Positions 11,709-25,487 are shown, counted from the stretch's first letter. The stretch is 31,723 bases of DNA from a virus (IMGVR_UViG_3300020472_000106:1-31723), one strand, 5' to 3'. Numbers and translations: made by a program. Notes: a model not told the origin generated them from the letters alone.

Positions 11709-13411
11709 TGCCACAAGCTATCGGTGCAGTTATTGGTTTTTTCCAAACAGTTTTTATTGCAACCGCTTCTATTGTTGGCTATGCAACAGGCACAATGGCA
11801 ATAGGTTATATTGCAGGCGCATTAGCTGTTGGAGCTGTTGTTGCAGGTGGAGTAGCTTTATTAAAAACACTTGCTCCAAAAATGCCTGATCTTAATGCTT
11901 TAACAAACAGAGGTCAGAATATTCGTTCACCAATATCAACAAGAAAATTAATATATGGTGAAGCAAAAGTAGGTGGCACAGTAGTCTTTGTATCAGAGGG
12001 CAATACAAATAGTGATAGAGAGTATCTTTATTTGCTTTTTGCATTAGCATCGCATGAGTGTCAAAGCATAGATAAAGTATATATTGCCGATGAAGAATGT
12101 ACTTTAGATGGAAGTGGTCAAGTTACAGTACCGACAAGATATGTAAAAGGTGGCACTTATCATGCTCGTTTTATTTTAGATATGCTAGGTGCATCAACAA
12201 GCCAAACATTAGATAGTATTATGACAACTGATACTGATTTAACTGCTACAGACCATTTTAAAGGCATGACTGTTGCTCAAGCAAGATTAAAATATGATCC
12301 AGATGGAATGTTCGCATCAGGAATACCACAGCTTAATTTTTTAGTAAAAGGTAAAAAAGTATATGATCCTAGAGATAGCGGACAAGCTGTAGATAGTTCT
12401 GCTACCTGGACATACTCAGATAACCCTGCGCTTGTTGTAGCAGATTATATAAGAAGTGAATTTGGTTTGGGAGTTCCTCATGCCAATATTGATTGGACTA
12501 CAGTTACAGCTAGTGCGAATACTTGTGATGAGCTTGTTACACTTGCAGATAGTTCAACACAAAAACGATTTACTTGTAATGGCATGATAGATACAGGAAC
12601 ACCTGTTCAAAATAACTTAGATGCTTTGTTAAGTTCTTGTGCAGGAACGATGATTTATGAGAATGGAAAGTATAAAATTTTAGCAGGCGAATATAGAACG
12701 CCAACATTAACAATAACTGAAAACGATTTAAGAGGTGGTATAAGCATACAAACGAAAACACCTGCATCAGAGCAAATAAATACTGTAACAGGTCTTTATG
12801 TTGGTTCAGATACGAATTATCAACCTGCTAATTACCCTATAGTTACTAACTCAACTTATGTAACTGAGGATGGTCAAGAGCAGAAAGCAGAAATTAATTT
12901 GAGTTTTACAGATTCAAGCACTATGGCTCAAAGAATAGCAAAGATATTCTTAGAACGCGCTAGAAAACAATACACAATGACATTAGGTCTTAACTTAGAA
13001 AAGTTTACCTTATCACCAGGTGATACAGTAAAGGTAACATTAGAAAGTTTAGGTTTTGATGAAAAAATCTTTGAAGTTGTTGAGTGGAGCTTTGGTGCAG
13101 AAAGTGAAATATTGGGTGTAGATGTATTATTAAAAGAAACAGCATCAACAGTTTATGGATGGTCAAGTTCTGAGGAGCAAAGTCAAGGAACAGTTCCTAC
13201 ATTAACACCAACTTACGATCAGGTGGTAGCAACGCCTACATTTAGTTTAACACAAGACCAGAGCAAAGCAGAAGATGGAACAATTATTGATGACATTGTT
13301 GTTGATATAAGTGATCCAACTACTGATCCTCATGTAAAGTTTTACCAAGTCTTTTGGAAAGAAAATTCTGAAAGCGATTACAAAGTTATAGAAGTCGAGA
13401 GAGAAATATAA
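11708..13411 (+). CDS. Tail hub / host-specificity protein, N-terminal part (gpJ-like, split)
   Basis: The protein has 567 residues. An N-terminal glycine/alanine-rich hydrophobic region (8-55) is followed by the gpJ-type hub: SPISTRKLIYGEAKVGGTVV, DEEYCTL-like strands, NPALVVADYIRSEFGLGVPH, FTCNGMIDTGTPVQNNLDAL, ERARKQYTMTLGLNLEKFTL and FEVVEWSFGAESEILGVDVL. Near residue 525 a fibronectin type III domain begins (HVKFYQVFWKENSESDYKVI), but the frame stops five codons later at EREI. The missing half of that domain is encoded at 14150 after a holin-bearing insertion. The tip-side and receptor-binding domains are therefore on a separate polypeptide. Confidence 0.88.
   Translation: MPQAIGAVIGFFQTVFIATASIVGYATGTMAIGYIAGALAVGAVVAGGVALLKTLAPKMPDLNALTNRGQNIRSPISTRKLIYGEAKVGGTVVFVSEGNTNSDREYLYLLFALASHECQSIDKVYIADEECTLDGSGQVTVPTRYVKGGTYHARFILDMLGASTSQTLDSIMTTDTDLTATDHFKGMTVAQARLKYDPDGMFASGIPQLNFLVKGKKVYDPRDSGQAVDSSATWTYSDNPALVVADYIRSEFGLGVPHANIDWTTVTASANTCDELVTLADSSTQKRFTCNGMIDTGTPVQNNLDALLSSCAGTMIYENGKYKILAGEYRTPTLTITENDLRGGISIQTKTPASEQINTVTGLYVGSDTNYQPANYPIVTNSTYVTEDGQEQKAEINLSFTDSSTMAQRIAKIFLERARKQYTMTLGLNLEKFTLSPGDTVKVTLESLGFDEKIFEVVEWSFGAESEILGVDVLLKETASTVYGWSSSEEQSQGTVPTLTPTYDQVVATPTFSLTQDQSKAEDGTIIDDIVVDISDPTTDPHVKFYQVFWKENSESDYKVIEVEREI
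13397..13408 (+). repeat. Left copy of a 12-bp repeat bounding the insertion in the gpJ-like gene
   Basis: GAGAGAGAAATA, read in the hub frame as Glu-Arg-Glu-Ile just before the TAA. The partner at 14141-14152 (GAGAGCGAAATG, Glu-Ser-Glu-Met) matches at 10 of 12 bases and is in the same reading phase, 744 bp away (248 codons). Confidence 0.55.
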
Positions 13412-13602
13412 TGCCTAAAAAAACAATTAGCGATATAGACAAAAAGGTGGCAGTTTTGGAAGCACATTTGAAAGATCATATTAAAGAATGTTCAAAAACA
13501 TCAGAGCAAACACTAATAAGAATCAAGAGAATTGAAGCAATTATGGTTGGTGGTACAGCATCAGTCTTAGCTTTACTTTTAAAGATAGTCTTTTTTACTT
13601 AA
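13411..13602 (+). CDS. Membrane-anchored coiled-coil protein, XhlA/holin-like
   Basis: The protein has 63 residues. A charged helix (residues 5-42, SDIDKKVAVLEAHLKDHIKE and following) is followed by one C-terminal membrane span (45-62, IMVGGTASVLALLLKIVFF). This is the plan of XhlA-type haemolysin/holin accessory proteins. The ATG overlaps the stop of the interrupted hub gene (TAATG). Together with the next gene it forms a lysis cassette inserted in the hub gene. Confidence 0.65.
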   Translation: MPKKTISDIDKKVAVLEAHLKDHIKECSKTSEQTLIRIKRIEAIMVGGTASVLALLLKIVFFT

Positions 13603-13640
13603 ACCGCTTCTAAGGCGATTTAAAGCTCATACAGTAAGTT

Positions 13641-13678
13641 TTGATGTTTTACATCAATTAGTATGTAAAAACTTTACA
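13641..13678. promoter_or_regulatory. Operator site A: palindromes before the holin gene
   Basis: TTGATGT TTT ACATCAA (13641-13657) is a perfect 17-bp palindrome and the best copy of the motif found at 16665, 22489 and 23993. A second, different palindrome TGTAAA AAC TTTACA is at 13664-13678, centre 22 bp away. The site lies in the 113-bp gap before the holin at 13716, so the phage repressor probably silences lysis independently of the late operon. No confident promoter could be assigned. Confidence 0.75.
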
Positions 13679-13715
13679 ACCATATTTACACTTAATTTAT
13701 AAGGATTTTTTTTCG

Positions 13716-14153
13716 ATGATTTCAATTATTGGAAGCGTGTTGGGCTTTTCAACTTCTTTTTTGCCAAAGATATTATCTTTCTTTGCTGAAAAACAAAAAT
13801 TTAAAAATGAGATGGCTTTATTGACTGCTCAAAGCAAAATGAAACAGTCAGAATTAGCTAGTCTTGCAAAAATTCAACAGAATAAATCTATCTATGAGCA
13901 TGACCAAAAAATAATTGAGAATACATCAAGTGGTTTTATTAACAATTTAAGGTCATCAGTTAGGCCAATACTTACATATTGTTTTTTTCTAACTTATGTA
14001 GGTTTTAAAATTGTCATAATTATTATAGCCATCCAAGAGGGCGATGACGCATTAATAGCGATCAGGGATAGCTATGGAGAGGAGGACATGGGACTCTTAT
14101 CGATTTGTGTAAGTTTCTGGTTCGGTTCTAAAATGAATGAGAGAGCGAAATGA
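13716..14153 (+). CDS. Holin, gene-transfer-agent 3TM type
   Basis: The protein has 145 residues. It has an N-terminal hydrophobic segment (2-24), a charged helix (27-70), then SGFINNLRSSVRPILTYCFF leading into a membrane span (about 84-110), and a final LLSICVSFWFGSKMNERAK. The RASVRP-like and FWFG..R features match the family known as holin of 3TMs for gene transfer release. It forms the membrane lesion for lysis. It is preceded by its own operator region. Its stop overlaps the next start (ATGA). Confidence 0.8.
   Translation: MISIIGSVLGFSTSFLPKILSFFAEKQKFKNEMALLTAQSKMKQSELASLAKIQQNKSIYEHDQKIIENTSSGFINNLRSSVRPILTYCFFLTYVGFKIVIIIIAIQEGDDALIAIRDSYGEEDMGLLSICVSFWFGSKMNERAK
14141..14152 (+). 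repeat. Right copy of the 12-bp repeat bounding the insertion in the gpJ-like gene
   Basis: GAGAGCGAAATG. The ATG is the start codon of the downstream hub fragment. Deletion between this copy and the one at 13397 would rejoin the two hub pieces in frame. Confidence 0.55.
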
Positions 14154-15118
14154 CAAAGTTAGTATTATCACCTGTAACAAGCGGAAAAACATATAATGTT
14201 AAAGTTTCTGCTATTAATGATGTTGGAGTGCATAGCGCAGTTTCTACAGTAAGCAATATAACTATCGCTTCTTATACTACAGCTCCAGGTGTTCCTACAT
14301 CCGCATCAGCAACCTCCGATCCGGTATCAATAACTATTAAATGGACTAACCCTGCTGATAGAGACCTTAAAGGTGTAGAGCTTTGGTATTCAACATCAAG
14401 TGGTGGCTCTTTTAGCTTAATTGGTTCTATAGATGGTTCTCCAGGTGTTGCTCAAGAATACAACCTCAACTACGATTCATCCTTTAGTTTAAATCAAACT
14501 TATTATTTCAAATTACGATCAATTAATACATCAAATGTAGCATCAGCTTACACAGCAGAAGTCTCTGCGCAATTTTCCACAATAGCAACCTCAGATATAA
14601 CACTACAAGCTGTATCAAATATGTATTCAGCAGTAACAAGTGGCAACCAATATTTCGCAACTGATGTAGATACTATAACTTATTCTGCAAATAGTGGCGC
14701 ATCAACCTCAACATTAAAAGGTATTATATGCGCAGAAATAACATTGGGAGCAATAGGTTCTAACATTACAGGTTTTGCTATTAGCGCAACTGCAATGGTT
14801 CAAAAGAAGTTTACATGGTCATCATCAAGATATGTAACAGGTGTAGTTTTGCAAAAAGTAACAGGAAACGCATATTATGAACAAGCTACAGGTTTTGGAA
14901 GTTCTGCTCAATTCTTAGGCGAAAATGAAGCTGATTCTCAAGACTATGGAGATGGCGTACAAGCTACCTACGCGACTAACTCTATTGATAGTTCTGGTGA
15001 TGTTATAGGCACAACAGGCAGTAAGTACGCTTTATTTTTATATACTGAAACAGAGCCAAGTTTCAGTTTAGGTGTATTTGCAGGAAGTGGTTTAACAATT
15101 ACAGAGTTAAAGAGGTAA
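14150..15118 (+). CDS. Tail hub C-terminal part: fibronectin III domains and receptor-binding tail
   Basis: The protein has 322 residues. It begins in the middle of a fibronectin type III domain (TKLVLSPVTSGKTYNVKVSA, INDVGVHSAVSTVSN), which completes the domain cut off at 13411. A second complete FN3 follows (about 40-140: GVPTSASATSDPVSITIKWT, DLKGVELWYSTSSGG, YYFKLRSINTSNVAS). The rest is a beta-rich C-terminal domain (ISATAMVQKKFTWSSSRYVT). In lambda-like phages these parts belong to gpJ. No ribosome binding site other than GAGAG is seen, so translation probably depends on coupling to the holin stop. Confidence 0.85.
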   Translation: MTKLVLSPVTSGKTYNVKVSAINDVGVHSAVSTVSNITIASYTTAPGVPTSASATSDPVSITIKWTNPADRDLKGVELWYSTSSGGSFSLIGSIDGSPGVAQEYNLNYDSSFSLNQTYYFKLRSINTSNVASAYTAEVSAQFSTIATSDITLQAVSNMYSAVTSGNQYFATDVDTITYSANSGASTSTLKGIICAEITLGAIGSNITGFAISATAMVQKKFTWSSSRYVTGVVLQKVTGNAYYEQATGFGSSAQFLGENEADSQDYGDGVQATYATNSIDSSGDVIGTTGSKYALFLYTETEPSFSLGVFAGSGLTITELKR

Positions 15119-15120
15119 TT

Positions 15121-15321
15121 ATGGCTTTAGAATTATTGCTAGGATATTTTTATGATGCTGATGGAAATTTAGTTCAATGGTATCAGGGATATGGGGATTT
15201 AGAAAATTTAGAGGAATTTTTAGAACATAGAGGAAATGCAACAGGGTTCGTTTCTTCAAAAAGTGTAGATACAAATGCACATAAATACGATTTTGAAACA
15301 CAAACAATAATAGAGATATAA
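15121..15321 (+). CDS. Small hypothetical protein
   Basis: The protein has 66 residues: LLGYFYDADGNLVQWYQGYG, then acidic residues and SKSVDTNAHKYDFETQTII. GAGG precedes the ATG, and it follows the hub fragment by 2 bases, so it is in the same operon. It is rich in aromatic residues. I do not recognise it; a tail-tip accessory is suggested only by position. Confidence 0.65.
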   Translation: MALELLLGYFYDADGNLVQWYQGYGDLENLEEFLEHRGNATGFVSSKSVDTNAHKYDFETQTIIEI

Positions 15322-15322
15322 A

Positions 15323-15886
15323 ATGGATAAAATAATTCAAATTATAAAAAGCATTATATCGCCAGAGCAGAATTGGTCAGCTTTTGCCATGAAAATAATA
15401 GGATTAGTTGTAGTTACTGTAATTGCTTATATTGCTTTTCAACAATACACCAATTTAACCGCAGATGAAGATAACCAAAATATTCCAATTATAGAGGTAT
15501 TTGAAGCGCAACCAGAAAAGAAAGATGAAGTTGAAGATTTAGTAAATAAACTATTAAGGTCAGATCGCGATATTCAATCTGTTTGGTTGTATGATTGGGT
15601 AGATGCAAGAAATGTAGTGCCTTTAATGATGCTACCAAGAAATAGTGAAGATTTATTGCCAACCGGATATTTTATGCAAGGCGATGAGTATGTGATTGGT
15701 CATTTTGTTTTAAGCCAATGCACTTCTTTAGATCGAGATATTACAAATACTGCTTGTCCAATAATGAGTTCAGAAGATGCGTGGGGAGTTCTTGTAGTAA
15801 CTTATGCAGATAATCTTTCAAACTTAAAAACAACAAAAGCTACAGCAATGAAAATATCTGAAATTTTATATTTGCAGAATAATTAA
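15323..15886 (+). CDS. Single-span membrane protein with periplasmic domain
   Basis: The protein has 187 residues. A short cytoplasmic N-terminus (1-20) is followed by one membrane span (about 23-42, MKIIGLVVVTVIAYIAFQQY). A long acidic periplasmic domain follows, with EKKDEVEDLVNKLLRSDRDI, VWLYDWVDARNVVPLMMLPR, and two Cys at about 133 and 145 that could pair. It is not a recognised family. Its position next to a lipoprotein after the holin genes suggests a lysis or envelope role, for example an unusual inner-membrane spanin, but it lacks a long coiled coil. It could also be a superinfection-exclusion protein. Confidence 0.65.
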   Translation: MDKIIQIIKSIISPEQNWSAFAMKIIGLVVVTVIAYIAFQQYTNLTADEDNQNIPIIEVFEAQPEKKDEVEDLVNKLLRSDRDIQSVWLYDWVDARNVVPLMMLPRNSEDLLPTGYFMQGDEYVIGHFVLSQCTSLDRDITNTACPIMSSEDAWGVLVVTYADNLSNLKTTKATAMKISEILYLQNN

Positions 15887-15914
15887 AAAATAATTCAACA
15901 AAAAGGAGTAACCT

Positions 15915-16049
15915 ATGAAAAATTTAACGATACTAATATTGCCATTATTTTTAATGGCTTGTGGATCATCCAGGATAATGCTTAATGCAGATATTCCTCA
16001 AGATACAGAAATAAATATCGAAATTTCAACCGATAAAACTAGCGACTAA
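15915..16049 (+). CDS. Small outer-membrane lipoprotein, 44 residues
   Basis: The protein has 44 residues and a clear lipoprotein signal: MKNLTILILPLFLMAC, with lipobox L-M-A-C16. The mature part is only 29 residues (CGSSRIMLNADIPQDTEINI...). A strong AAGGAG lies 7 bases before the ATG. The stop overlaps the next start (TAATG). In a Gram-negative host it would be anchored to a membrane. It may be the outer partner of a two-component spanin with the preceding membrane protein (inference). Confidence 0.75.
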   Translation: MKNLTILILPLFLMACGSSRIMLNADIPQDTEINIEISTDKTSD

Positions 16050-16348
16050 TGTATTTATATAAAGCGTACTTGGTTAGGGTTGTTAATGGTGGTCTAATCA
16101 AAGCAAGTATAGATTTAGGATTTGGTGTGTTGCTAACCGCTATGCCAATACACCTAATTAACATACAAGCACCAGATGGCATTGATGGTCAAAAAGCAAC
16201 CGATTATTTACGAACATTGTTGCCTGATACCTTTACTGTAAAAACTAAAATGGATGGATCAATGATACTTGGTGAAGTCCAAGTGCGTGGTGTTTCTATA
16301 AACGATAAGATGTTAGATAGCGGTCTAGTAAAGAAATATGGCGAGTAG
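16049..16348 (+). CDS. Staphylococcal-nuclease-fold protein, catalytically degenerate
   Basis: The protein has 99 residues. YKAYLVRVVNGGLIKASIDL and GFGVLLTAMPIHLINIQAPD align with the SNase pattern V.VVDGDT......LG.......RL.GI.APE. However, the DGDT aspartate is replaced (NGGL), the arginine before L.GI is His, and no acidic residue follows the AP. The later part (GEVQVRGVSINDKMLDSGLV) matches the SNase tail where new residues and the ending helix lie. The fold is likely; nuclease activity is unlikely. The stop overlaps the first arm-type site of attP. Confidence 0.7.
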   Translation: MYLYKAYLVRVVNGGLIKASIDLGFGVLLTAMPIHLINIQAPDGIDGQKATDYLRTLLPDTFTVKTKMDGSMILGEVQVRGVSINDKMLDSGLVKKYGE

Positions 16349-16368
16349 TATTCACAAAGTATTCACAA
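16347..16368 (+). repeat. Left arm-type sites of attP (two tandem 11-bp repeats)
   Basis: AGTATTCACAA occurs twice in perfect tandem (16347-16357 and 16358-16368). The same pair, in the same orientation, lies on the other side of the tRNA core at 16608-16629. This is the arrangement of arm-type integrase binding sites in lambda-like attachment sites. Confidence 0.75.
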
Positions 16369-16498
16369 AAATAGTTTTACTACATCATTTTTATTCTTTT
16401 CTACTCTTTCGTTTCTTTAATACTAAACATAGGGTTTACTTAGGTTTTAATGTAAATAACTGTATTTATTAAACATATAAAATATACTACACCAATGG

Positions 16499-16543
16499 CT
16501 TTTAAGGAGATTGTCACAGGTTCGATCCCTGTCGGGCTCACCA
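16499..16543 (+). other. attP core: 3' half of a tRNA-Lys(UUU) gene
   Basis: From the anticodon loop onward every position matches tRNA numbering. Loop CTTTTAA (16499-16505) has U33 and anticodon UUU. It is followed by the 3' anticodon strand (16506-16510), a 5-base variable loop (16511-16515), T stem ACAGG/CCTGT with loop TTCGATC (16516-16532), acceptor strand CGGGCTC (16533-16539), discriminator A and encoded CCA (16541-16543). There is no 5' half, so this is not a functional tRNA gene. It is the identity segment that would restore a host tRNA-Lys on integration, next to the integrase. Confidence 0.92.
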
Positions 16544-16607
16544 CACAAATAGCAGAATACCGCTATTATCAAGGGTATATCCAATAATTACTTACAAATA
16601 AGCTAAA
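16544..16607. other. attP spacer with a small inverted repeat
   Basis: Between the tRNA segment and the right arm sites is AATAGC (16548-16553) with GCTATT (16562-16567), a 6-bp inverted repeat with 8 bases between. It may be a bending or accessory-factor site, or nothing. No gene is seen. Confidence 0.35.
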
Positions 16608-16629
16608 AGTATTCACAAGGTATTCACAA
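16608..16629 (+). repeat. Right arm-type sites of attP (two tandem 11-bp repeats)
   Basis: AGTATTCACAA (16608-16618) is followed directly by GGTATTCACAA (16619-16629), one mismatch between them. They have the same period and orientation as the left pair at 16347-16368, about 90 bp after the tRNA core. Confidence 0.75.
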
Positions 16630-16664
16630 AAAAACTTGTAAAAACAATAAAATCTTGCTAATTT

Positions 16665-16701
16665 ATGATGTACGACATCAATTAATGATGTTTAACCATT
16701 A
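16665..16701. promoter_or_regulatory. Operator site B: tandem repressor sites before the integrase operon
   Basis: Primary site ATGATGT ACG ACATCAA (16665-16681). Secondary degenerate site ATGATGT TTA ACCATTA (16685-16701), centre exactly 20 bp away. Both precede the AGGAGG of the gene at 16719. The position implies that the repressor controls the integrase operon. A possible promoter TTGTAA (16636-16641) with TAATTT 17 bp later lies just upstream. Confidence 0.78.
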
Positions 16702-16718
16702 ATTTTTAGGAGGATGTA

Positions 16719-16898
16719 ATGGAAACTAAAGAGTTAAATTTTAAATTAAAATATTTTGTGAGATACCATAATCTTGAAGAAGATGATATTGGCACAAATT
16801 ATTTTGGTAATTTACAAAATGCAATAGTAAATTATCTATATTACAAAAAGAAAAATTATAATGTAACTTTTCACCAGATACCACTAAGGAGTGCGTAA
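16719..16898 (+). CDS. Small protein encoded ahead of integrase
   Basis: The protein has 59 residues: METKELNFKLKYFVRYHNLE, EDDIGTNYFGNLQNAIVNYL, YYKKKNYNVTFHQIPLRSA. AGGAGG lies 6 bases before the ATG. The stop overlaps the integrase ATG (TAATG), so the pair is co-translated. It is small, aromatic and basic at the C-terminus. A directionality factor would fit the position, but no helix-turn-helix is evident. Confidence 0.7.
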   Translation: METKELNFKLKYFVRYHNLEEDDIGTNYFGNLQNAIVNYLYYKKKNYNVTFHQIPLRSA

Positions 16899-18247
16899 TG
16901 GCTAAAGTTTTAAAAAGAAAATTAAAAATGAAAGGTAAGTTTCATACTTTTTGGCAGGTTGATGGTAGGTCTTTTGGCAAAGGTCAAATATCAAAAAACC
17001 CAAACACAAATGAACGCTTTGAAAGTAAAAAAGAAGCACAAGCATATTTAGATGAATTAAATGCTAAAATTAGCACAGGAGTTAATTTAGATAGTGATAA
17101 GCTAGAAGTCATCAAGTTATGCGCACCTGGAGAATATGAAACATTAGAAAATTCTAACTCAGGTGAAAAGCAGTTAATTGGTGGTGGTGAGTATATTGCT
17201 AAACGCTGTGAACATTTAGAGGATGAACAAATAGGTTTAAACCATTTTCAAAGCATGAGATGGTCTCTAGGTATTCTTATTGATTATTGTAATAAAAATA
17301 ACATTAAGTATTGGACTGCAATAAATGCTGAAAGTTTTTTAAGAAAAGTTTTAAAAGACTGCAAAGCTAATGCAACTGATAAAGAATCAGTTGACCTCAG
17401 AGACGCGTCAGCATGGACTACTTTTGAAAAGCACATCAAGAACCTTAAATGTATGTCATCTTGGATCGCGCTTGAAAAGAATTGTGATGACATTTTTGCA
17501 AGTATCATTACCTCAAAAAAGCATGGCAGAGATGTAACATTTAAAAAACCAAAAAGACTTGAGCATTTGCAAAGACAAGCAAAAGATAAAACTGTTAATG
17601 TTGATATGGTTGAGATGCTTAGACAAAAAATAGTCGATAAATACCAAGAAAAAAACAAAAACTATAAACCTGAGTGGGCGGAAAGTCGTAGGCGCACAAT
17701 GTTACTGCAATTTGACCTGATTAAAGCAATAGGGTTACGCATAGGTGAAGCTCTGGCTCTTACTTGGGATGATATTATTGGTAATGAAATACGCATTAAC
17801 AAGCAATATAACAGCAAGTCTAATAGTGTTACTGATACAAAAGGTGGAGTGTTTGAACATTTTGTATATGTAAGTGATACGATGGCTAACCGCTTGCAAG
17901 AGCATAAAGAGTTACAGCTTGATGAGGAAAGAGAAAACGACTTAGTGTTTCCTAATACTAGAGGTGAACATGATAGCAGACGAGTTTTAGGTCGTATTAT
18001 GAAGCAATACAGTAAAGATATTTGGGGTGCTAACTCATCAATGCACATATCACCGCACACTTTAAGGCATTTATTTGCTACTGAAATGATAAGAAAAGGT
18101 GGCAAGGATGCACTACCAATGGTCTCTGATATTTTAAGACATTCTACAGGTGTAAAGTTTACTGAAAAACAATATGTGCATGAAACTAAGAAATCAGACA
18201 AACAAATAGTAAAACAAATTGAAGCTGTAACAGGTCTCTATAACTAA
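16898..18247 (+). CDS. int: Tyrosine-family site-specific integrase
   Basis: The protein has 449 residues. The N-terminal part (1-60) resembles an arm-binding domain (VDGRSFGKGQISKNPNTNER, then KKEAQAYLDELN). A core-binding helical region follows (about 85-200). The catalytic domain has Arg281 (GLRIGEALALTW), His387 and Arg390 (SPHTLRHLFATE), His415 (ILRHSTG) and Tyr426 (EKQYVHET). It recombines attP with the host tRNA-Lys gene. It lies 355 bp downstream of the tRNA core, with operator B between. The 449-residue length is longer than many phage integrases, mainly in the middle region. Confidence 0.96.
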   Translation: MAKVLKRKLKMKGKFHTFWQVDGRSFGKGQISKNPNTNERFESKKEAQAYLDELNAKISTGVNLDSDKLEVIKLCAPGEYETLENSNSGEKQLIGGGEYIAKRCEHLEDEQIGLNHFQSMRWSLGILIDYCNKNNIKYWTAINAESFLRKVLKDCKANATDKESVDLRDASAWTTFEKHIKNLKCMSSWIALEKNCDDIFASIITSKKHGRDVTFKKPKRLEHLQRQAKDKTVNVDMVEMLRQKIVDKYQEKNKNYKPEWAESRRRTMLLQFDLIKAIGLRIGEALALTWDDIIGNEIRINKQYNSKSNSVTDTKGGVFEHFVYVSDTMANRLQEHKELQLDEERENDLVFPNTRGEHDSRRVLGRIMKQYSKDIWGANSSMHISPHTLRHLFATEMIRKGGKDALPMVSDILRHSTGVKFTEKQYVHETKKSDKQIVKQIEAVTGLYN

Positions 18248-18255
18248 GGAATTAA

Positions 18256-19353
18256 ATGCTACTAGATCAAGCTAACAAATACATCGCATTAGCGGAGCAA
18301 TGCGGTGAGGGTAAGAAATATCCAAAGCAAGAAGCGGTAGCAACAGAATTAGGTTTAACCCTATACCAATTCAAATCGCGCTTAAAACAAGCCAGATCGC
18401 TTGTAGCACTACACAAAGCAGGTAAACTTAATCAGGATGCTAAACCTGATGTGGTTGATGGAGTAAAGGCATTTGAAACTCCTATTTTACCAGATGAGGA
18501 TATGGATTTACCTGAGTTATTAGAACACATGGTAAAACGCTTTAAAAAGCGAGATAAAGCTAAGAAAGCGTCTAATTGGGTAAATATAAAGGTTAATTTT
18601 GACTCGCCTTTTATGTTGCTTATTGTGGGCGATCCTCATGTTGACGACAACTATTTCAATGCGCCTAAGTGGATGAGAGATATTGCTATTGTTCAGCAGA
18701 ATAAACCTTACATCAGATCACTACTTTTAGGAGATTATGCTAATAATTGGCCTGGAAGAATGTCAAGACTGTACCAAGACCAAACTCTAGGAGCTTCACA
18801 TCAATGGAAGCTCGTTGAACATATGCTTTCAAAAGAGGGTTTTGATCCATTAGTTATCGTTGCAGGAAATCATGATATGTTCATAGATAGAGGAAACGAT
18901 CCAATTAAATTTATGCAAAGAGCGCGTCATGCGGTGCAAGGAGATTGGACTGTAAAAATGAAGTTCCAATTACCAAATAAAAAAGAGCTTAAAGTCATAA
19001 CGAGCCACAATTTTAGCGGAAATTCACAATGGAACCCCTTACATTCGAATTTAAAAGCATCAATGATGGGAGTTCCTGCTGATATATACTGTTCTGGACA
19101 TTTACATAATTGGGCTATAATGCAGATGCCAATTACTGCTCAAAATAGAACAACATGGTTAATACGAGCAAGAGGGTACAAGCAGTACGATGACTATGCC
19201 ACAAAATTAGGATATGAACCTGATTTTAGTAATGTGGGTGAAAGTATTGCTGTTGTGGTTGATCCGAGTGCAAGTGAGCATACTTGGATTCAATGCTATC
19301 CTGATGTAGAGCAGGGAGCTGAGTTCCTGCATTTTTTAAGAAACAGAAAGTAA
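18256..19353 (+). CDS. Calcineurin-like metallophosphoesterase with N-terminal DNA-binding-like domain
   Basis: The protein has 365 residues. Residues 1-55 look like a helix-turn-helix (KQEAVATELGLTLYQFKSRL). The phosphoesterase domain has GDPH (Asp126, His128), LLLGDYANN (Asp160), AGNHD (Asn205, His206) and SGHLHN (His282, His284), the full set of metal-binding motifs. This is typical of phage proteins related to Mre11/SbcD-type or protein phosphatases; the substrate is unknown. It is read with integrase, 8 bp after it. Its 3' end overlaps the convergent nuclease gene by 18 bp. Confidence 0.88.
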   Translation: MLLDQANKYIALAEQCGEGKKYPKQEAVATELGLTLYQFKSRLKQARSLVALHKAGKLNQDAKPDVVDGVKAFETPILPDEDMDLPELLEHMVKRFKKRDKAKKASNWVNIKVNFDSPFMLLIVGDPHVDDNYFNAPKWMRDIAIVQQNKPYIRSLLLGDYANNWPGRMSRLYQDQTLGASHQWKLVEHMLSKEGFDPLVIVAGNHDMFIDRGNDPIKFMQRARHAVQGDWTVKMKFQLPNKKELKVITSHNFSGNSQWNPLHSNLKASMMGVPADIYCSGHLHNWAIMQMPITAQNRTTWLIRARGYKQYDDYATKLGYEPDFSNVGESIAVVVDPSASEHTWIQCYPDVEQGAEFLHFLRNRK

Positions 19354-19803
19354 ACTTTTCCCAATCTTTACGCAATATGGCTCAAATATCTCTATAGGTA
19401 TTAAATAAAAAGACTTAGGTGTTTTATCGCCTTTACCAACTACATTTTCTTTTTTTAATATTTTTTCCCTATTCTCCGCAATACACATCCAAATTTTATA
19501 AGGTGTTATTTTATATAGTTTCAGGCCAGAATCGATTAGCCAATAGGTTGCTCCTGTTTTTTTTAAAGCACTTGGATTACCTGGAGGCATTTCATATTCT
19601 ATAATAATGTTTCCTGTTGCTTGGCTTTTTAAATCTCTTTTTATTTCCCAAGAAATACCTGATTCAGCATCATAAAGATCAAATGATTTAAAAGTGCCTG
19701 TTGGTACAGTCTCTATATTTGGATAACCATTTTTTGCTAAAAACATTACAGCTAGTTTTTCGAGGTTCTTACCCTCATCTAAGTCTTGGTAAAATTTATC
19801 CAT
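19336..19803 (-). CDS. PD-(D/E)xK-like nuclease
   Basis: The protein has 155 residues. Glu15, then SFDLYDAESGISWEIKRDLK with Asp42, Glu53 and Lys55, gives the spacing of a restriction-endonuclease-like active site (E...D...ExK). NIIIEYEMPPG follows as the expected strand. It is the last gene of a leftward operon that holds a C5 cytosine methyltransferase. The pair could be a restriction-modification-like unit or the nuclease could serve recombination. Its start overlaps the stop of a 21-residue peptide gene (TAATG). Substrate specificity cannot be read from sequence. Confidence 0.7.
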   Translation of the reverse strand: MDKFYQDLDEGKNLEKLAVMFLAKNGYPNIETVPTGTFKSFDLYDAESGISWEIKRDLKSQATGNIIIEYEMPPGNPSALKKTGATYWLIDSGLKLYKITPYKIWMCIAENREKILKKENVVGKGDKTPKSFYLIPIEIFEPYCVKIGKSLLSVS

Positions 19804-19868
19804 TAATACATCCCAACAACTAGAGCTAAAAATAAAAAATACATTAATAACGCTTTAGTCTTTTCCAT
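19803..19868 (-). CDS. 21-residue membrane microprotein
   Basis: MEKTKALLMYFLFLALVVGMY: a short charged start and one hydrophobic span. GGAGA precedes the ATG by 6 bases. The start overlaps the methyltransferase end by 14 bp and the stop overlaps the nuclease start. The coding fit between two genes and a good ribosome binding site support it, though it may act only as a coupling peptide. Confidence 0.5.
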   Translation of the reverse strand: MEKTKALLMYFLFLALVVGMY

Positions 19869-20781
19869 TATGTGTCTCCTTTATTGCTAAACCAATTATA
19901 TGAGCCATTTGGGGTACTATTGCATTGCCTAGAGCTTTCAATCTTTTGGCTCGGTCTTTTTTGATTGTTGTGGTTCTTCCAATATCTCTAGGTTCGTGTA
20001 ACCAATAGGGAATCCCATAAGCCATTCTGTCCAATCTGGATTTAAAGTTCCCTTTCCCTGATTTCTTACTTCTGGATGATTTCCCAACATTTTCTGCATT
20101 TTCCCATTTGGAGTACCACAAGCATCCTCGTTGGCGGTTGGAGTCGGAAACATCCTTACTGTGTCCGCTAGATTTAGACTGTGCGATCCTCCTATTCCAT
20201 TTGATGCTTTTCTTCTTCCCAGATGATCTAGTTCCGCTTGTGGATGTTCTGTTTCTATTGTGGTTGGAGTCGGAAATATTCTCTGCGATCCACCAAACTC
20301 GTTGTCTCCTGTGCCATGCTCCGAGACACGATGCTTCCACACTAAAGCACCTGATTCTGTAGTTAAGATGCTCCAAGTCCTCGAATACCTCGTTGAGACC
20401 GAGTCCAATATGTCCGCTAACATTTTCTCCAATGGCGTAAATTGGACTGAGTTCTTTAATAAGTCGTAGATATTCTGGAAAGAGGTATCTTGTATCTTCT
20501 TTACCTTTTCTCTTACCTGCGGTTGACATCGGTTGACAAGGATAACCTCCTGTAAGGATGTGAATTGGGTTTCTTTCTGAAACAAGTCCATCTGATCTAA
20601 GTCGGTCATAACTCAACTCTTTGACATCGTTGTATATCGGAACATCTTGCCAATGCTTGTTTAAAACCTTTTTGCAGAATGTGTCTTGTTCGCAAAATGC
20701 TACTGTTTTGAAAAAATCTGTATTTTCTAAGCCAAATGAAAAGCCACCTATACCTGAGAATAAATCTAAATGTCTCAGCAC
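19855..20781 (-). CDS. C5 cytosine DNA methyltransferase
   Basis: The protein has 308 residues, from a GTG start that overlaps the previous stop (TAGTG). Motif I is DLFSGIGGF (6-14), motif IV GGYPCQP with catalytic Cys82, motif VI GENV (about 118-121), motif VIII WHRRQRVWWIA (about 156-166), and the closing RLKALGNAIVPQMAH (motif X). The target recognition region (about 168-250) is short and Ser/Lys/Arg-rich. It methylates cytosine at C5, probably to protect phage DNA from host restriction or as partner of the nuclease downstream. A second long same-strand frame is embedded in it. Confidence 0.93.
   Translation of the reverse strand: MLRHLDLFSGIGGFSFGLENTDFFKTVAFCEQDTFCKKVLNKHWQDVPIYNDVKELSYDRLRSDGLVSERNPIHILTGGYPCQPMSTAGKRKGKEDTRYLFPEYLRLIKELSPIYAIGENVSGHIGLGLNEVFEDLEHLNYRIRCFSVEASCLGAWHRRQRVWWIAENISDSNHNRNRTSTSGTRSSGKKKSIKWNRRIAQSKSSGHSKDVSDSNRQRGCLWYSKWENAENVGKSSRSKKSGKGNFKSRLDRMAYGIPYWLHEPRDIGRTTTIKKDRAKRLKALGNAIVPQMAHIIGLAIKETHNGKD
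19938..20609 (-). CDS. Overlapping +1-frame reading frame inside the methyltransferase
   Basis: This is a 223-codon frame in the same strand as the methyltransferase, shifted by +1. Its second half reads SRTWSILTTESGALVWKHRV, RMFPTPTANEDACGTPNGKM and GTLNPDWTEWLMGFPIGYTN. These strings look like the LPTPTA... and LNP.WVEWLMGFP.GWT motifs that I recall from C-terminal regions of other phage cytosine methyltransferases. It may be a real overprinted or frameshift-accessed product, or a by-product of codon constraints. No clear ribosome binding site was found for the ATG at 20609. Confidence 0.35.
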   Translation of the reverse strand: MTDLDQMDLFQKETQFTSLQEVILVNRCQPQVREKVKKIQDTSFQNIYDLLKNSVQFTPLEKMLADILDSVSTRYSRTWSILTTESGALVWKHRVSEHGTGDNEFGGSQRIFPTPTTIETEHPQAELDHLGRRKASNGIGGSHSLNLADTVRMFPTPTANEDACGTPNGKMQKMLGNHPEVRNQGKGTLNPDWTEWLMGFPIGYTNLEILEEPQQSKKTEPKD

Positions 20782-20894
20782 TAAGCACCTATTAAAACCT
20801 TAACGAAAATTGTTATAAAGAAGATGTAAGCCATGATGCAGGCAAAAATAATTCTGATAACTTCATCGGCTTTTTTGTAAGTTTTGTTATCCAT
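20781..20894 (-). CDS. 37-residue membrane protein ahead of the methyltransferase
   Basis: MDNKTYKKADEVIRIIFACI, then a hydrophobic span MAYIFFITIFVKVLIGA. GGAG lies 6 bases before the ATG. The stop overlaps the methyltransferase GTG (TAGTG), making translational coupling likely. I do not recognise a family. Confidence 0.6.
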   Translation of the reverse strand: MDNKTYKKADEVIRIIFACIMAYIFFITIFVKVLIGA

Positions 20895-20896
20895 AA

Positions 20897-21016
20897 TTAC
20901 TCCATATTCATCTCGGCTACGCAGTCGGTCTTTCTAGCCACTAAGCGATACGATTCCTCTGTAAACCCTCCCAAAATGTTGAAGTATGTAACAACAACAA
21001 ATATGATATTTACCAA
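20897..21016 (-). CDS. Possible 39-residue protein (TTG start)
   Basis: The frame from TTG 21016 to TAA 20897 reads MVNIIFVVVTYFNILGGFTE, then ESYRLVARKTDCVAEMNME. A hydrophobic start could insert in the membrane. It fills the gap between the AlpA-like gene and the next small gene with 2-bp spacing on both sides, but it needs a TTG start and lacks a clear ribosome binding site. Confidence 0.35.
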   Translation of the reverse strand: MVNIIFVVVTYFNILGGFTEESYRLVARKTDCVAEMNME

Positions 21017-21018
21017 AA

Positions 21019-21288
21019 CTAATCTGTGTGCAGGTTTGAACCTGTTACTGAATTATCTTGCTCATATATTTGCTCCATGTACCATTTCTCAACAAGCGGT
21101 GTTAGCCACATAGCGCGACCTGCACCATTGTTGGATGGAATAGTGGGTTTTGGAAAATTGCCTTTCTCGCTTAATCTTCTAATTCTTTGGCAATAACTTT
21201 CTTTCTCATCGCCAAATAATATTTTAGCGATAGTCTTTGCAGGTATCATTCCAGGTAAATCTTTAAAATACTCAGAATGGTATGTCAT
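21019..21288 (-). CDS. AlpA/MerR-like small DNA-binding protein
   Basis: The protein has 89 residues from ATG 21288, preceded by AGGAG at 8 bases. IPAKTIAKILFGDEKESYCQ, RIRRLSEKGNFPKPTIPSNN and AMWLTPLVEKWYMEQI match the plan of short winged helix-turn-helix proteins of the AlpA/excisionase type. A longer in-frame start at 21384 would lie wholly inside the SSB frame and is less likely. It could be an excisionase or an operon regulator. It overlaps the SSB gene end by 17 bp. Confidence 0.65.
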   Translation of the reverse strand: MTYHSEYFKDLPGMIPAKTIAKILFGDEKESYCQRIRRLSEKGNFPKPTIPSNNGAGRAMWLTPLVEKWYMEQIYEQDNSVTGSNLHTD

Positions 21289-21895
21289 CGTTGATCTCCT
21301 CATCTTTAAAGTCAGTAGTGGATGGCGGTGATGAAGTAGTTGATCCAGAACCGCCTTGATAATTCCCTGAGTAACTATCTCCACTACCTATGCTTTTGCT
21401 CGAATTGCTAACATTACCCTCCGTTCTCGAAGCATCAGCATATTCTTTTTTAGTCCATCCCATAGGGCTATTAGTCCAAATCCAATTTTTACCGACAGAG
21501 AGTTCATCTTTATCGCTAAATTCTTGCAAGCTGTATTCAAGTGTCATGCCCAATCTTTGCATTTCATATAGAGCAGTAGATAACTTGTTCAAAACATCTT
21601 GCTCTTGTTCTGGAGTAGCATGACCTTTTACTTTTTGAGTTTCATAATCTTTACTAATAAATAATTTGTGAACAATACGACCTGGTTTAAGGTTTTTTAG
21701 TTTTTCAACATTAAGTTCTGTAAAATAAATCATGTTATTAGTCGCAATGGGATCGCGATTAGTTCTTACTCTATCTTTAGGTGTAAAAGGCCTTAATGAT
21801 TTACGAAAATAAACACCTTTAAACTCTTGTTTGTTGGCAGGTGCTTCAAAAGCTGTTCTTGGAGCTTTATTTAATTGATTTTTATAATTACCCAT
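21272..21895 (-). CDS. ssb: Single-stranded DNA-binding protein
   Basis: The protein has 207 residues. The beta-rich N-terminal 150 residues (FKGVYFRKSLRPFTPKDRVR, MIYFTELNVEKLKNLKPGRI) are unlike E. coli SSB in detail. However, the Gly/Ser-rich linker (about 165-193) and the acidic end NDDIPF are diagnostic of SSB-type proteins that recruit partners through the C-terminal tip. It lies next to an annealing-like protein in the leftward early operon, as in phage recombination modules. It overlaps both neighbours by 8 and 17 bp. Confidence 0.8.
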   Translation of the reverse strand: MGNYKNQLNKAPRTAFEAPANKQEFKGVYFRKSLRPFTPKDRVRTNRDPIATNNMIYFTELNVEKLKNLKPGRIVHKLFISKDYETQKVKGHATPEQEQDVLNKLSTALYEMQRLGMTLEYSLQEFSDKDELSVGKNWIWTNSPMGWTKKEYADASRTEGNVSNSSKSIGSGDSYSGNYQGGSGSTTSSPPSTTDFKDEEINDDIPF

Positions 21896-22361
21896 TGGCT
21901 TCTAACATCTCATTTGCTTGATCTATTTGTTGTTTATATTCTTTAGCTTCTGCTCGTTTAATTTCTTGAGCTGATGCCATTTCATCACCTGCTAAACCAA
22001 AACTTGCCAATGCTCTACCTATTGCTGATGTTTCACAATTCTCAACCATTGATGTTTTGTTAATAAAATTGGTCTCTACATCCTCCTCTGCATGACCACA
22101 AGATAACAAACGATTTGCAGGTGAATAAACCTCTGCTTTCATAATAATATGCTCATCATTTTTTTCTATAATGCTTGTATGAATTGAAAATGCAGAAAAA
22201 AATTCTCTAAAAACTTTTACTCTTTCGGCTACAGTTTTATAGTTTTTACCATGTATATCTACACCAGGTTTTTCTATTAATGCTTGTTGAGCTTGTTCCA
22301 TTACCTTTTGTATTGAAATGCTCATTATTTCTAAATCTCTTTGGCTATCAATTTCGTTCAT
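21888..22361 (-). CDS. Single-strand annealing protein-like (ERF/Rad52-type)
   Basis: The protein has 157 residues. The segments YKTVAERVKVFREFFSAFSI, HTSIIEKNDEHIIMKAEVYS, and especially SMVENCETSAIGRALASFGL, AGDEMASAQEIKRAEAKEYK, resemble phage recombinases in which an ETSAxGRAL helix follows a beta sheet. The partner SSB gene immediately downstream supports a recombination role. The assignment is from motif memory; the alternative is an uncharacterised DNA-binding protein. Confidence 0.6.
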   Translation of the reverse strand: MNEIDSQRDLEIMSISIQKVMEQAQQALIEKPGVDIHGKNYKTVAERVKVFREFFSAFSIHTSIIEKNDEHIIMKAEVYSPANRLLSCGHAEEDVETNFINKTSMVENCETSAIGRALASFGLAGDEMASAQEIKRAEAKEYKQQIDQANEMLEANG

Positions 22362-22470
22362 CTTTATCCCTTTTCTTGTTTAGAATCGATCTAAACCATT
22401 TTACGCGTGCTTTTTGGAGTTTTTTTAAAGTCTGTTGATTAACAACATCTTTTTTCTTTACATCCTCCAT
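22348..22470 (-). CDS. Small basic protein at the head of the leftward operon
   Basis: The protein has 40 residues from ATG 22470 (MEDVKKKDVVNQQTLKKLQK, ARVKWFRSILNKKRDKDERN), or 44 from ATG 22482. The promoter predicted at 22478-22505 would start RNA at about 22472, so the shorter start would be nearly leaderless. It is highly basic and helical and overlaps the next gene by 14 bp. A regulator or antiterminator is possible by position; nothing in the sequence proves it. Confidence 0.5.
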   Translation of the reverse strand: MEDVKKKDVVNQQTLKKLQKARVKWFRSILNKKRDKDERN

Positions 22471-22477
22471 ATTGCTC

Positions 22478-22505
22478 ATCATAAAAGCATGATGTTTAAC
22501 ATCAA
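22478..22505 (-). promoter_or_regulatory. Leftward early promoter (PL-like) overlapping operator C
   Basis: On the minus strand, TTGATG (22505-22500), 16 bp, then TATGAT (22483-22478). The -35 element lies inside the operator palindrome, so repressor binding would block it. The predicted start is 2-3 bases before ATG 22470. Confidence 0.6.
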
Positions 22506-22525
22506 GAGTTAATGTTGTTATTAAT
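22489..22525. promoter_or_regulatory. Operator site C: tandem repressor sites of the leftward operon
   Basis: Primary ATGATGT TTA ACATCAA (22489-22505). Secondary degenerate site TTAATGT TGT TATTAAT (22509-22525), centre exactly 20 bp away, the same spacing as at sites B and D. Confidence 0.8.
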
Positions 22526-22555
22526 TAATTATAAATTAACTAAATGTGGATAATT
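22519..22555 (+). repeat. 37-bp direct repeat with DnaA box, copy 1
   Basis: This 37-bp sequence beginning TATTAATTAATT and ending TGTGGATAATT is repeated at 23939-23975 with only two differences (35 of 37 identical), in the same orientation. It contains a perfect DnaA box (TGTGGATAA, 22545-22553). Both copies sit beside an operator region. Confidence 0.8.
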
Positions 22556-22562
22556 TGATTGA

Positions 22563-23201
22563 CTATTCAAAAATGTTTATTCTTTGAGCTATGCCTTTGC
22601 ATAAGTCATAAACTTTTTTCATATTTGTAGCATTTGCTAGATTTAATTCTTCTTGATTACCTTTTTTCCAAGAATCAATTAAAAACTCTGCAACTGCTGT
22701 ATTATAACAATATAAGTTTCTAATTTTTTTGTGATATTTTTTTTTATTAAAACAAGCTCGAGTTTTACTACCAAATTCAATTTTCTTAATGCTATCTGTT
22801 TGTATAAGACCTGCACCTGTTAAATTATTTAATCTTTGTGATAATGGAATTTGATCAAACAACAATCCTTCGGCTTCTAAGAAATCCTGTAATTCAGTCA
22901 TAGATACATATTTGGCACAATGACAGTCTCGATGTAAATATTTTTCTAATAAAAATAAAGTTATACCAAAATCTATTGTATCACAATGAAAGCCATTATC
23001 CCAATCACCATTTTTTCTTTGACCTTCTTGCATTAAACTTGCTGTAACTTTTTCCATTATTACCCACAGCTTAAATATATCTAATTGCGCCTTTAATGCT
23101 TCTGTAATGGGTATGCTTATCCAACTATTCTCTTGAGGAGAAATATCTTTAATTTCTTTTTTTACAGTTTCATAAAACTGTTTATTTTGACTCTTTGGCA
23201 T
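22563..23201 (-). CDS. Hypothetical protein of the immunity region
   Basis: The protein has 212 residues. It has a helical N-terminus (NKQFYETVKKEIKDISPQEN), a middle with CDTIDFGITLFLLEKYLHRD, CHCAKYVSMTELQDFLEAEG and LSQRLNNLTGAGLIQTDSIK, which reads like a winged helix (helix, helix, then a beta wing), and a basic KKKYHKKIRN stretch. Cys residues near 73, 94 and 96 are noted. It is in the same leftward unit as the repressor, 46 bp downstream. It may be a second regulator. I do not recognise the family. Confidence 0.7.
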   Translation of the reverse strand: MPKSQNKQFYETVKKEIKDISPQENSWISIPITEALKAQLDIFKLWVIMEKVTASLMQEGQRKNGDWDNGFHCDTIDFGITLFLLEKYLHRDCHCAKYVSMTELQDFLEAEGLLFDQIPLSQRLNNLTGAGLIQTDSIKKIEFGSKTRACFNKKKYHKKIRNLYCYNTAVAEFLIDSWKKGNQEELNLANATNMKKVYDLCKGIAQRINIFE

Positions 23202-23247
23202 TGCTCATGTCTTTCACATTTTCTTTTTCTTATTGTTAGGGCAATAA

Positions 23248-23874
23248 TTAATTAACTTTTATTTTTATATCTGTAATCGGATGATAACTTTTGATTTTGT
23301 TTATCTTTGTTTTGTAAACTTCTCGTAAATAATTTGTAAATCGGACTTCATCATCAAATCCAATTTCTACATTTCTTGCAAAAACATAATCACCTTTTTT
23401 CAAATGCAGTATTGCATCAATATTGTGAAAGTTTTTTGTGTTGGGATCATACTCAATAGAGTCAAAGATAAAATAATATACTTTATCAGGGTTAGCATAA
23501 TATTCTATCGCTGATCGGTCAGGTGGGTATTTTGAATCTACGCTTACTTTCTTATGTCTATGAAATATCTTAATGTCTTGATTTTCATTCATAGCACCTA
23601 CAACGCGCAGTTTATTTATGTAGTAATCTGGTTCTTCTAACAGGTCGCTAGGATCAACGCTAATATTGGCTTCTGTTTTAATCAGATGTACTAATTGGAG
23701 TAAATGTTCTTGTGATATATTTTGGCGAGGTTTACCATGTTCATCCAGGTTACACCATTTGCTAATAGTCTCCATAGCAACACCACCACAGGCCAAACTT
23801 ACTGATTGGCGAGATATGCCTAACTCATCAAGAGTTTTTCCTATTAACGATTTTTTGGTCACAACATTTAACAT
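23248..23874 (-). CDS. CI-like phage repressor
   Basis: The protein has 208 residues. The N-terminal helix-turn-helix is around residues 15-45 (TLDELGISRQSVSLACGGVA, METISKWCN). A linker is followed by a beta-rich C-terminal part (VYYFIFDSIEYDPNTKNFHN, IDAILHLKKGDYVFARNVEI) that recalls the S24/CI fold. The usual AGxSM serine motif is not evident, so RecA-stimulated self-cleavage is doubtful. GGGAGG lies 9 bases before the ATG. It lies beside operator D and is the best candidate to bind the four operator regions. It is read leftward, divergent from the early operon. Confidence 0.75.
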   Translation of the reverse strand: MLNVVTKKSLIGKTLDELGISRQSVSLACGGVAMETISKWCNLDEHGKPRQNISQEHLLQLVHLIKTEANISVDPSDLLEEPDYYINKLRVVGAMNENQDIKIFHRHKKVSVDSKYPPDRSAIEYYANPDKVYYFIFDSIEYDPNTKNFHNIDAILHLKKGDYVFARNVEIGFDDEVRFTNYLREVYKTKINKIKSYHPITDIKIKVN

Positions 23875-23938
23875 TTTATTTAAACCTCCCTACAAGGCAA
23901 GTATTATCTTTTTATAAAGTCTAAAAATAATCAATAAC

Positions 23939-23975
23939 TATTAATTAATTTAAAATTAACTAAATGTGGATAATT
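23939..23975 (+). repeat. 37-bp direct repeat with DnaA box, copy 2
   Basis: Partner of 22519-22555 (35 of 37 identical, same orientation). The perfect DnaA box TGTGGATAA is at 23965-23973. It lies between the repressor start and operator D, 18 bp before the operator. Confidence 0.8.
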
Positions 23976-23992
23976 ATGTCAATAGTTATAAC

Positions 23993-24029
23993 TTAATGTT
24001 TAACATCAAGTGCCTTAATTGTTATTATA
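23993..24029. promoter_or_regulatory. Operator site D: tandem repressor sites of the genetic switch
   Basis: Primary TTAATGT TTA ACATCAA (23993-24009). A secondary weak site shares TTGTTATTA (24019-24027) with the second site of region C in the same phase, centre again 20 bp away. It lies between the divergent repressor gene and the rightward early operon. Confidence 0.8.
24000..24028 (+). promoter_or_regulatory. Rightward early promoter (PR-like) giving leaderless mRNA
   Basis: TTAACA (24000-24005), 17 bp, then TATTAT (24023-24028): five of six consensus bases in each box with ideal spacing. The -35 box lies in the primary operator and the -10 in the secondary. RNA would start at about 24033-24035, at the ATG (24034), so the first gene would be read from a leaderless transcript, as lambda cI is from PRM. 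Confidence 0.7.
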
Positions 24030-24255: not shown

Positions 24256-24322
24256 TTATCTCCACATATTAACAATGGCATTAATAATTGCTGTAATAGT
24301 TCATATAGGTATGTGGAAATGA
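24239..24322 (+). CDS. 27-residue membrane microprotein
   Basis: MISQIDYLHILTMALIIAVI, then VHIGMWK: one clear membrane span. It overlaps the previous gene by 17 bp and its stop overlaps the next start (ATGA). No clear ribosome binding site is seen, so expression would rely on coupling. A membrane-acting early peptide, or a leader that couples translation, are both possible. Confidence 0.45.
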   Translation: MISQIDYLHILTMALIIAVIVHIGMWK

Positions 24323-24492
24323 AACACAGCGATTTTTTAAGACTTTTATTAAAAACAGGTACAGGTGATATGGATTTAATTAGAGAGGGTTTTACTACAA
24401 TGGAAATTAAAATGTGGAAAAAAGGTACATCACCAATACCTGCAAAAGTAGGTCAATATTTATTGAATAGAGTATCTGATGGACAAAAATAA
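24319..24492 (+). CDS. Cro-like helix-turn-helix protein
   Basis: The protein has 57 residues. KHSDFLRLLLKTGTGDMDLI, then REGFTTMEIKMWKKGTSPIP, then AKVGQYLLNRVSDGQK. The second segment reads as a helix-turn-helix (helix, GFTTMEIKMWKKG turn and recognition helix, IPAKVG helix), as in small Cro/CI-type proteins. Its place in the early rightward operon facing the repressor is the lambda cro position. It overlaps both neighbours (4 and 14 bp). Confidence 0.65.
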   Translation: MKHSDFLRLLLKTGTGDMDLIREGFTTMEIKMWKKGTSPIPAKVGQYLLNRVSDGQK

Positions 24493-25260: not shown

Positions 25261-25487
25261 TGCCTAGAAAATCTTGGTACTCATATTGCATAGTATGGAA
25301 AGATAAAAATGGAGAACAAATTTTTGATGTTGTAGATCATTATTCCTATGATGAAGCATTAAAAGTAATTTATCTTGATGATAATTGGACAGATGGAGTT
25401 TCAGAAATTGTTTGGATAAATATATATCCATTAACTAAATCTCAAATGCGAGAAAGAAAAAAACTAACAGGCATTGAGGTTACATGA
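25260..25487 (+). CDS. Hypothetical early protein
   Basis: The protein has 75 residues: MPRKSWYSYCIVWKDKNGEQ, then DVVDHYSYDEALKVIYLDDN, then a basic MRERKKLTGIEVT end. It is a strand-helix-strand fold of the sort seen in small phage adaptor proteins. It is coupled to both neighbours (TAATG, ATGA). The function is unknown. Confidence 0.65.
   Translation: MPRKSWYSYCIVWKDKNGEQIFDVVDHYSYDEALKVIYLDDNWTDGVSEIVWINIYPLTKSQMRERKKLTGIEVT

Follow-up and report, generated by a model that had tools for sequence, protein, structure and literature searches.

The marine virus record IMGVR_UViG_3300020472_000106:1-31723, which was analysed whole (31,723 bases, hereafter "the window"), raises the question of which protein acts through a 17-bp palindrome that recurs in front of four of its transcription units, and to what effect. 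These units are those of the holin, of a tyrosine integrase and of the leftward and rightward operons that flank a putative repressor gene. In the reading that we consider probable, the phage encodes a lysogeny switch protein for which the four palindromes serve as operators, and the best candidate for it is the 208-amino-acid product of the gene at 23248-23874; in the same reading the phage is temperate and integrates into a tRNA-Lys gene of the PS1/OCS116 clade, a little-studied group of Alphaproteobacteria that is its likely host group. The action of a phage-encoded regulator at the four units is well supported by strong statistics, by the conservation of the positions in two relatives and by the lack of any beyond-chance occurrence of the motif in the likely hosts.

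The original prediction placed the motif at four positions, always in gene-free gaps, and named the gene neighbours listed above; both statements hold. The motif TTGATGTNNNACATCAA is matched perfectly at 13641 and with one mismatch each at 16665, 22489 and 23993. Under a first-order Markov model of the window, the expected number of sites with one mismatch or none is 0.02, against the four observed, and all four lie wholly within gene-free gaps, which make up 6.1% of the window (p ~1.4e-5). When the window was scanned with a symmetric position weight matrix, the four sites took ranks 1 to 4 (24.4, 24.1, 22.2 and 20.0 bits), and the next-best places (15.8, 14.9 and 13.7 bits) were all found inside genes; the original prediction would have been undermined by equally good copies within genes, where the best score is 15.8 bits against at least 20.0 bits for the four sites. 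Leave-one-out matrices still put every site within the best four, with the integrase site barely ahead of the best other place (14.9 vs 14.2 bits). Chance palindromes could be suspected here, as the gaps are AT-rich and as matches with up to three mismatches are only mildly more frequent than expected (8 vs 3.85), but the excess of close matches, together with their retention in relatives, refutes a chance origin of the four main sites and leaves practically no probability to it.

Throughout the collections searched, the module was found in two other contigs only. One, L006 (IMGVR 3300030098_004226; the same contig is also labelled L005, L008, L012, L019 and L020), is ~90% identical to the window, whereas the other, L007 (IMGVR 3300006916_001701), is more divergent, with an integrase 67% identical to that of the window, and stops inside the repressor gene. 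Each of the four sites has a counterpart at the corresponding place in L006 (the integrase site being at 9429), as do the three testable ones in L007 (holin, integrase at 5237 and leftward operon), the contig ending before the fourth. The positions are therefore conserved, as the original prediction required. The leftward operator is fully retained in L007 in spite of flanks that are 62% identical with gaps, and the holin operator is identical in L006 (17/17) and retains 15 of its 17 positions in L007, against 70% identity in its flanks. The integrase operator also retains 15 of 17 positions in L007 but between flanks that are 87% identical, and the integrase locus alone therefore shows no extra constraint; this operator is nevertheless kept despite changes in the leading gene of the operon, which encodes 59 amino acids in the window and 172 in L006 and is missing in L007. 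The in-gene place that scores 15.8 bits, a near match TTGATGTTGTAGATCAT at 25324-25340, is identical in L006 (18361), in a region that is highly similar between both phages.

Further searches of viral contigs with the repressor, the integrase, a 212-amino-acid and a 129-amino-acid protein and two DNA patterns returned only L006 and L007 as informative relatives. The Roseobacter phages CRP-811, CRP-821 and CRP-406, which are related to the window in their terminase and tail-tip proteins, have no listed integrase or repressor gene and carry no operator site.

Whether the sites answer to the phage or to its host can be addressed through the attachment site. The exact 45-nt attP core lies inside the tRNA-Lys(TTT) genes of four PS1/OCS116-clade genomes, which therefore probably belong to hosts of the phage or to near relatives of its host. 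These genomes (4.8 Mb) hold a single match to the motif, about the chance level: the motif is phage-specific, and the protein that binds it is therefore probably phage-encoded, a host regulon being unlikely. A host transcription factor bound to these sites would couple the prophage to the physiological state of the host, and the half TTGAT/ATCAA does resemble an FNR-type half-site; however, its spacing is 7 rather than the 4 of FNR boxes, and the single match among the four genomes makes this already disfavoured explanation very improbable.

The putative integrase arm sites flank the attP core. Their pairs are identical in L007, whereas all four copies read GTTTCTGCA in L006, whose integrase is 95% identical to that of the window with changes mostly at the N-terminus; this suggests a co-change of the arm sites and of the arm-binding domain. 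Separately, a PS1-clade genome (L016:4805-7222) carries a second tRNA-Lys attachment core ~2.3 kb after the tRNA gene, and the two enclose GIY-YIG-like and HNH-like open reading frames (ORFs); this attachment site thus seems to serve another element as well.

The gene that most likely encodes the protein binding the four sites is kept in both relatives (86% identical in L006, and 54% over the C-terminal part in L007). Relatives of the repressor were not found by tblastn in phage records, in a genome scan or in 18 genomes of the host order, nor were relatives of the integrase in these 18 genomes. The full-length structural model of the 208-amino-acid protein is poor (predicted local distance difference test, pLDDT, 43), with a helical N-terminus resembling a helix-turn-helix (HTH) and a beta-rich C-terminus. 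The N-terminal 80 residues, modelled separately, form helices in HTH-like order at medium confidence (pLDDT 72), and the non-significant PDB matches of this model include HTH domains of the lambda-repressor type (P22 C2, lambda repressor, C.Esp1396I and DdrO). As the protein has no detectable family and its HTH model is of medium confidence, we infer its binding to the operators. A LexA/CI-like C-terminus devoid of the catalytic Lys, proposed by eye, is supported by no tool and was not used as evidence.

The position of the sites relative to promoters bears on what such binding would do. Except at the holin, each palindrome lies just 3' of a -10-like hexamer; this is clear only at the integrase, where the aligned equivalents of the promoter are TTGCCA-N17-TAATTT in L006 and TTGTGA-N16-TATAAT in L007. 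The hexamer of the rightward operon occupies 23987-23992; that of the leftward operon, which carries recombination and methylase genes, is poor in the window (TTAACT) and reads TATACT in L007. This arrangement is fitting for repression at the start site, and from the position of the operators we infer that the four units would be silenced.

The holin operator overlaps a weak promoter-like pair, TTGATG-N17-TGTAAA (13641-13669), instead of following a -10. It could therefore be read as a roadblock within the late transcription unit, comparable to a stoperator, the other three sites being true operators. Such a roadblock would suit a site that lies between two co-directional late genes, lacks the -10-abutting layout and faces CAAGTT at the matching place in L006, and L5-type repressors do halt elongation at such gaps (PMC9283540, PMC6550527). 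On the other hand, L5 sites are asymmetric and many, and the overlapping pair, which reads TTAACG-N17-TATAAA in L007, is itself promoter-like; the roadblock is possible, if somewhat unlikely. In L007, the holin counterpart hits PF11351 with E=7e-5, slightly short of the curated cut-off.

The same region shows an apparent split of the tail-tip gene into two ORFs (11708-13411 and 14150-15118), separated by a segment (13411-14153) that holds a 63-amino-acid transmembrane gene, the operator at 13641 and the holin gene. Both ORFs jointly align across the junction with a single tail protein of ~970 amino acids from CRP-821 (30% identity over 636 amino acids), and the tail-tip gene is likewise one long gene in CRP-811 and CRP-406. 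The break falls within an FnIII-like region, is shared by L006 and L007, and its junctions carry GAGAGAGAAAT / GAGAGAGCGAAAT in the window and L006. A search of the window against Rfam found no RNA element or intron reaching the gathering threshold, only a single chance snoRNA match close to the holin.

Another phage regulator could be the main ligand of the palindromes, either a Cro-like protein of the rightward operon (for example the product of 24313-24492) or an excision factor and switch regulator of the 186 Apl type. The sites are indeed found both at the early promoters and next to attP and the promoter of the integrase, and small genes without assigned function are present in the rightward operon. 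Furthermore, 186 Apl binds both att and the early promoter region, and the excision-factor sites of P4 and KplE1 overlap the integrase promoter (PMC7498355). However, excision-factor sites form direct repeats spaced by about one helix turn (PMC7498355), not 17-bp palindromes, whereas the sites of the window are inverted repeats whose neighbours, where present, stand 20-21 bp off. An excision factor would also leave the holin site, far from att, unexplained, and the 59-amino-acid gene that precedes the integrase is replaced in L006 and absent in L007, while the operator is retained. We therefore regard such a regulator as distinctly unlikely to be the main ligand.

The original prediction further held that a weaker second site has its centre exactly 20 bp away at three of the loci. 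At the integrase, this is true of the left half-site; the opposite arm, CCATTAA, fits better with a 4-bp spacer (ATGATGT-TAAA-ACATTAA in L007), which brings the centre distance to ~20.5. At the leftward operon, the half-site at +20 exists in the window and L006 and not in L007, which has instead, at -21, a nearly complete second site ATAATGTTAAGCATTAT, one mismatch from the relaxed consensus. At the rightward operon (centre 24021), the 17-mer at 24013-24029, CCTTAATTGTTATTATA, mismatches 11 of the 14 relaxed consensus positions and is no credible second site, and there is none near the holin operator. The two-turn spacing thus looks like a tendency at two loci, not a rule, and would be consistent with cooperative dimers. 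As a whole, the original prediction is partly confirmed, its sites being borne out and its exact 20-bp tandem rule being supported at one of the three loci, in part at a second and not at the third; the regulon that it drew from them is likewise partly supported, well in outline and not in the fixed spacing.

Several points weigh against assigning the four sites to a repressor encoded at 23248-23874. The 208-amino-acid protein matches no family in Pfam, PHROG, NCBIfam or PDB, and its HTH model, besides its limited pLDDT, has fold matches with E>1 only. The promoters other than that of the integrase are weak by consensus, with weak -35 elements, and a consensus promoter scan yields fewer promoter-like sites than shuffles, hence no excess. 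Two relatives are the sole ones in the collections searched, and two of the L007 sites are weakened. Finally, among the 11 operators of the window, L006 and L007, the arm ACATCAA is invariant and every change falls in the other, left arm, which is odd for a symmetric dimer.

If the 208-amino-acid protein nevertheless is the repressor, a dimer on each palindrome would lie over the start region of three promoters, those of the integrase and of both early operons, whereas at the holin it would sit on the promoter-like region or in the path of RNA polymerase. In the prophage, all four units would be off together, and upon induction the excision, replication and lysis genes would be released together. 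At the integrase and leftward operons, cooperative binding may be added by the neighbouring half-sites, which stand off by about two helical turns. Small proteins of the rightward operon could also occupy these operators, in the manner of Cro in lambda.

The principle of dispersed operators is known. In phage P1, 22 asymmetric 17-bp operators of C1 are spread across the genome and are not confined to the early promoters (PMC8546580), and L5-type phages have >20 asymmetric 13-bp sites at promoters and intergenic gaps (PMC9283540, PMC6550527). The window, L006 and L007 share with P1 the recurrence of 17-bp sites at several transcription units of one phage, and with the gp71 system of L5 the location of sites at promoters and short intergenic gaps. 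However, they differ from P1, whose operators are asymmetric and numerous, by four palindromes, another consensus and an orphan candidate, and from L5 gp71, a monomer that binds asymmetric 13-mers, by few and palindromic sites. Indeed, the sites are not oriented with transcription as in L5, since the strand that carries the invariant arm is the same throughout, despite one leftward operon. As in lambda OL/OR, the repressor gene lies between two early control regions, and a repressor site overlaps each early promoter (22489 and 23993 flank 23248-23874). Unlike in lambda, each control region has a single strong site in place of three, with a mere half-site at +20 on the leftward side and none on the rightward side as tandem partners; there are extra sites at the integrase and holin, and DnaA boxes stand beside both early operators. 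Pfam detects no S24-type C-terminal domain in the 208-amino-acid protein. By the position of the sites, the control of integrase and lysis does go beyond lambda, as originally predicted, yet dispersed repressor operators have long been known from P1 and L5, and the present set is therefore a variant of such multi-operator immunity regulons. By description, it can also be likened to the Streptomyces phage phiC31, in which conserved inverted repeats, palindromic repressor sites of similar length, occur at several promoters and in larger number than here.

Table 1. Features of the window around the four palindromes (coordinates on the window; 44-, 208- and 212-aa, lengths in amino acids; TM, transmembrane segments)
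Feature	Coordinates	Strand	Remarks
Lysis-cassette operator TTGATGTTTTACATCAA	13641..13657	+	Between the 63-aa gene and the holin gene
3TM holin	13716..14153	+	3' of the first operator; phrog_6637
Putative integrase arm sites GTATTCACA	16347..16640	+	Pairs 16348/16359 and 16609/16620, flanking the attP core
attP core	16499..16543	+	3' part of tRNA-Lys(TTT), anticodon loop to CCA; exact 45-nt match
Integrase promoter TTGTAA-N17-TAATTT, from sequence	16636..16664	+	Abuts the operator
Integrase-operon operator ATGATGTACGACATCAA	16665..16681	+	Immediately 3' of the -10 hexamer
Second half-site ATGATGT, integrase	16685..16691	+	20 bp from the left arm of the first operator; window, L006, L007
Tyrosine integrase	16898..18247	+	PF00589, E=2e-18
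44-aa first gene of the leftward operon	22348..22482	-	Previously unlisted; start 7 bp past the operator; L007 has a comparable small ORF
Leftward early operator ATGATGTTTAACATCAA	22489..22505	+	Motif match; 17/17 in L006 and L007
Second half-site TTAATGT, leftward operon	22509..22515	+	+20 of the operator; window and L006, absent in L007
37-nt element, copy 1	22519..22555		DnaA box TTATCCACA at 22545-22553, - strand; ~40 bp from the leftward operator
212-aa gene after the repressor gene	22563..23201	-	Same strand; conserved in L006 and L007; no family
Putative immunity repressor, 208 aa	23248..23874	-	Between both early operators; orphan family
37-nt element, copy 2	23939..23975		DnaA box at 23965-23973, - strand; ~20 bp from the rightward operator; same in L006
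Possible repressor promoter TTGACA-N18-TAATTT	23953..23982	-	Reads left into the repressor gene; TTGACA kept in L006
Rightward early operator TTAATGTTTAACATCAA	23993..24009	+	Abuts the -10-like TATAAC; identical in L006 (17030)

The two copies of the 37-nt element beside the early operators (Table 1) are 95% identical, and each carries a perfect consensus DnaA box. Three consensus DnaA 9-mers occur in the window against 0.4 expected, the third at a gene start (24990). The distance between box and operator is fixed on the leftward side in three phages and on the rightward side in two, and the two distances differ by about two helical turns. Where these boxes lie, a good -35 is lacking, and at the rightward promoter the box occupies the -35 region itself. 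Two host genomes likewise have paired boxes of identical sequence between genes. Both early promoters might accordingly be joint switches of DnaA and repressor, at which host DnaA would help to fire them or would block repressor binding, so that the choice between lysis and lysogeny would read the replication state of the host. This scenario, read from the sequence, is doubtful, and any action of DnaA at the early promoters is a conjecture.

For the PS1/OCS116 clade, which is marine, literature searches found no described phages; within the reach of the searches, the arrangement of four palindromic sites, the orphan protein, the added DnaA boxes and the host are all new. The four sites offer a concrete and testable immunity regulon for the temperate phages of this clade. 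They also suggest a compact way of silencing a prophage, with one site per dangerous transcription unit, integrase and lysis included, and, if the DnaA boxes are functional, the lysogeny switch would be linked to host replication.

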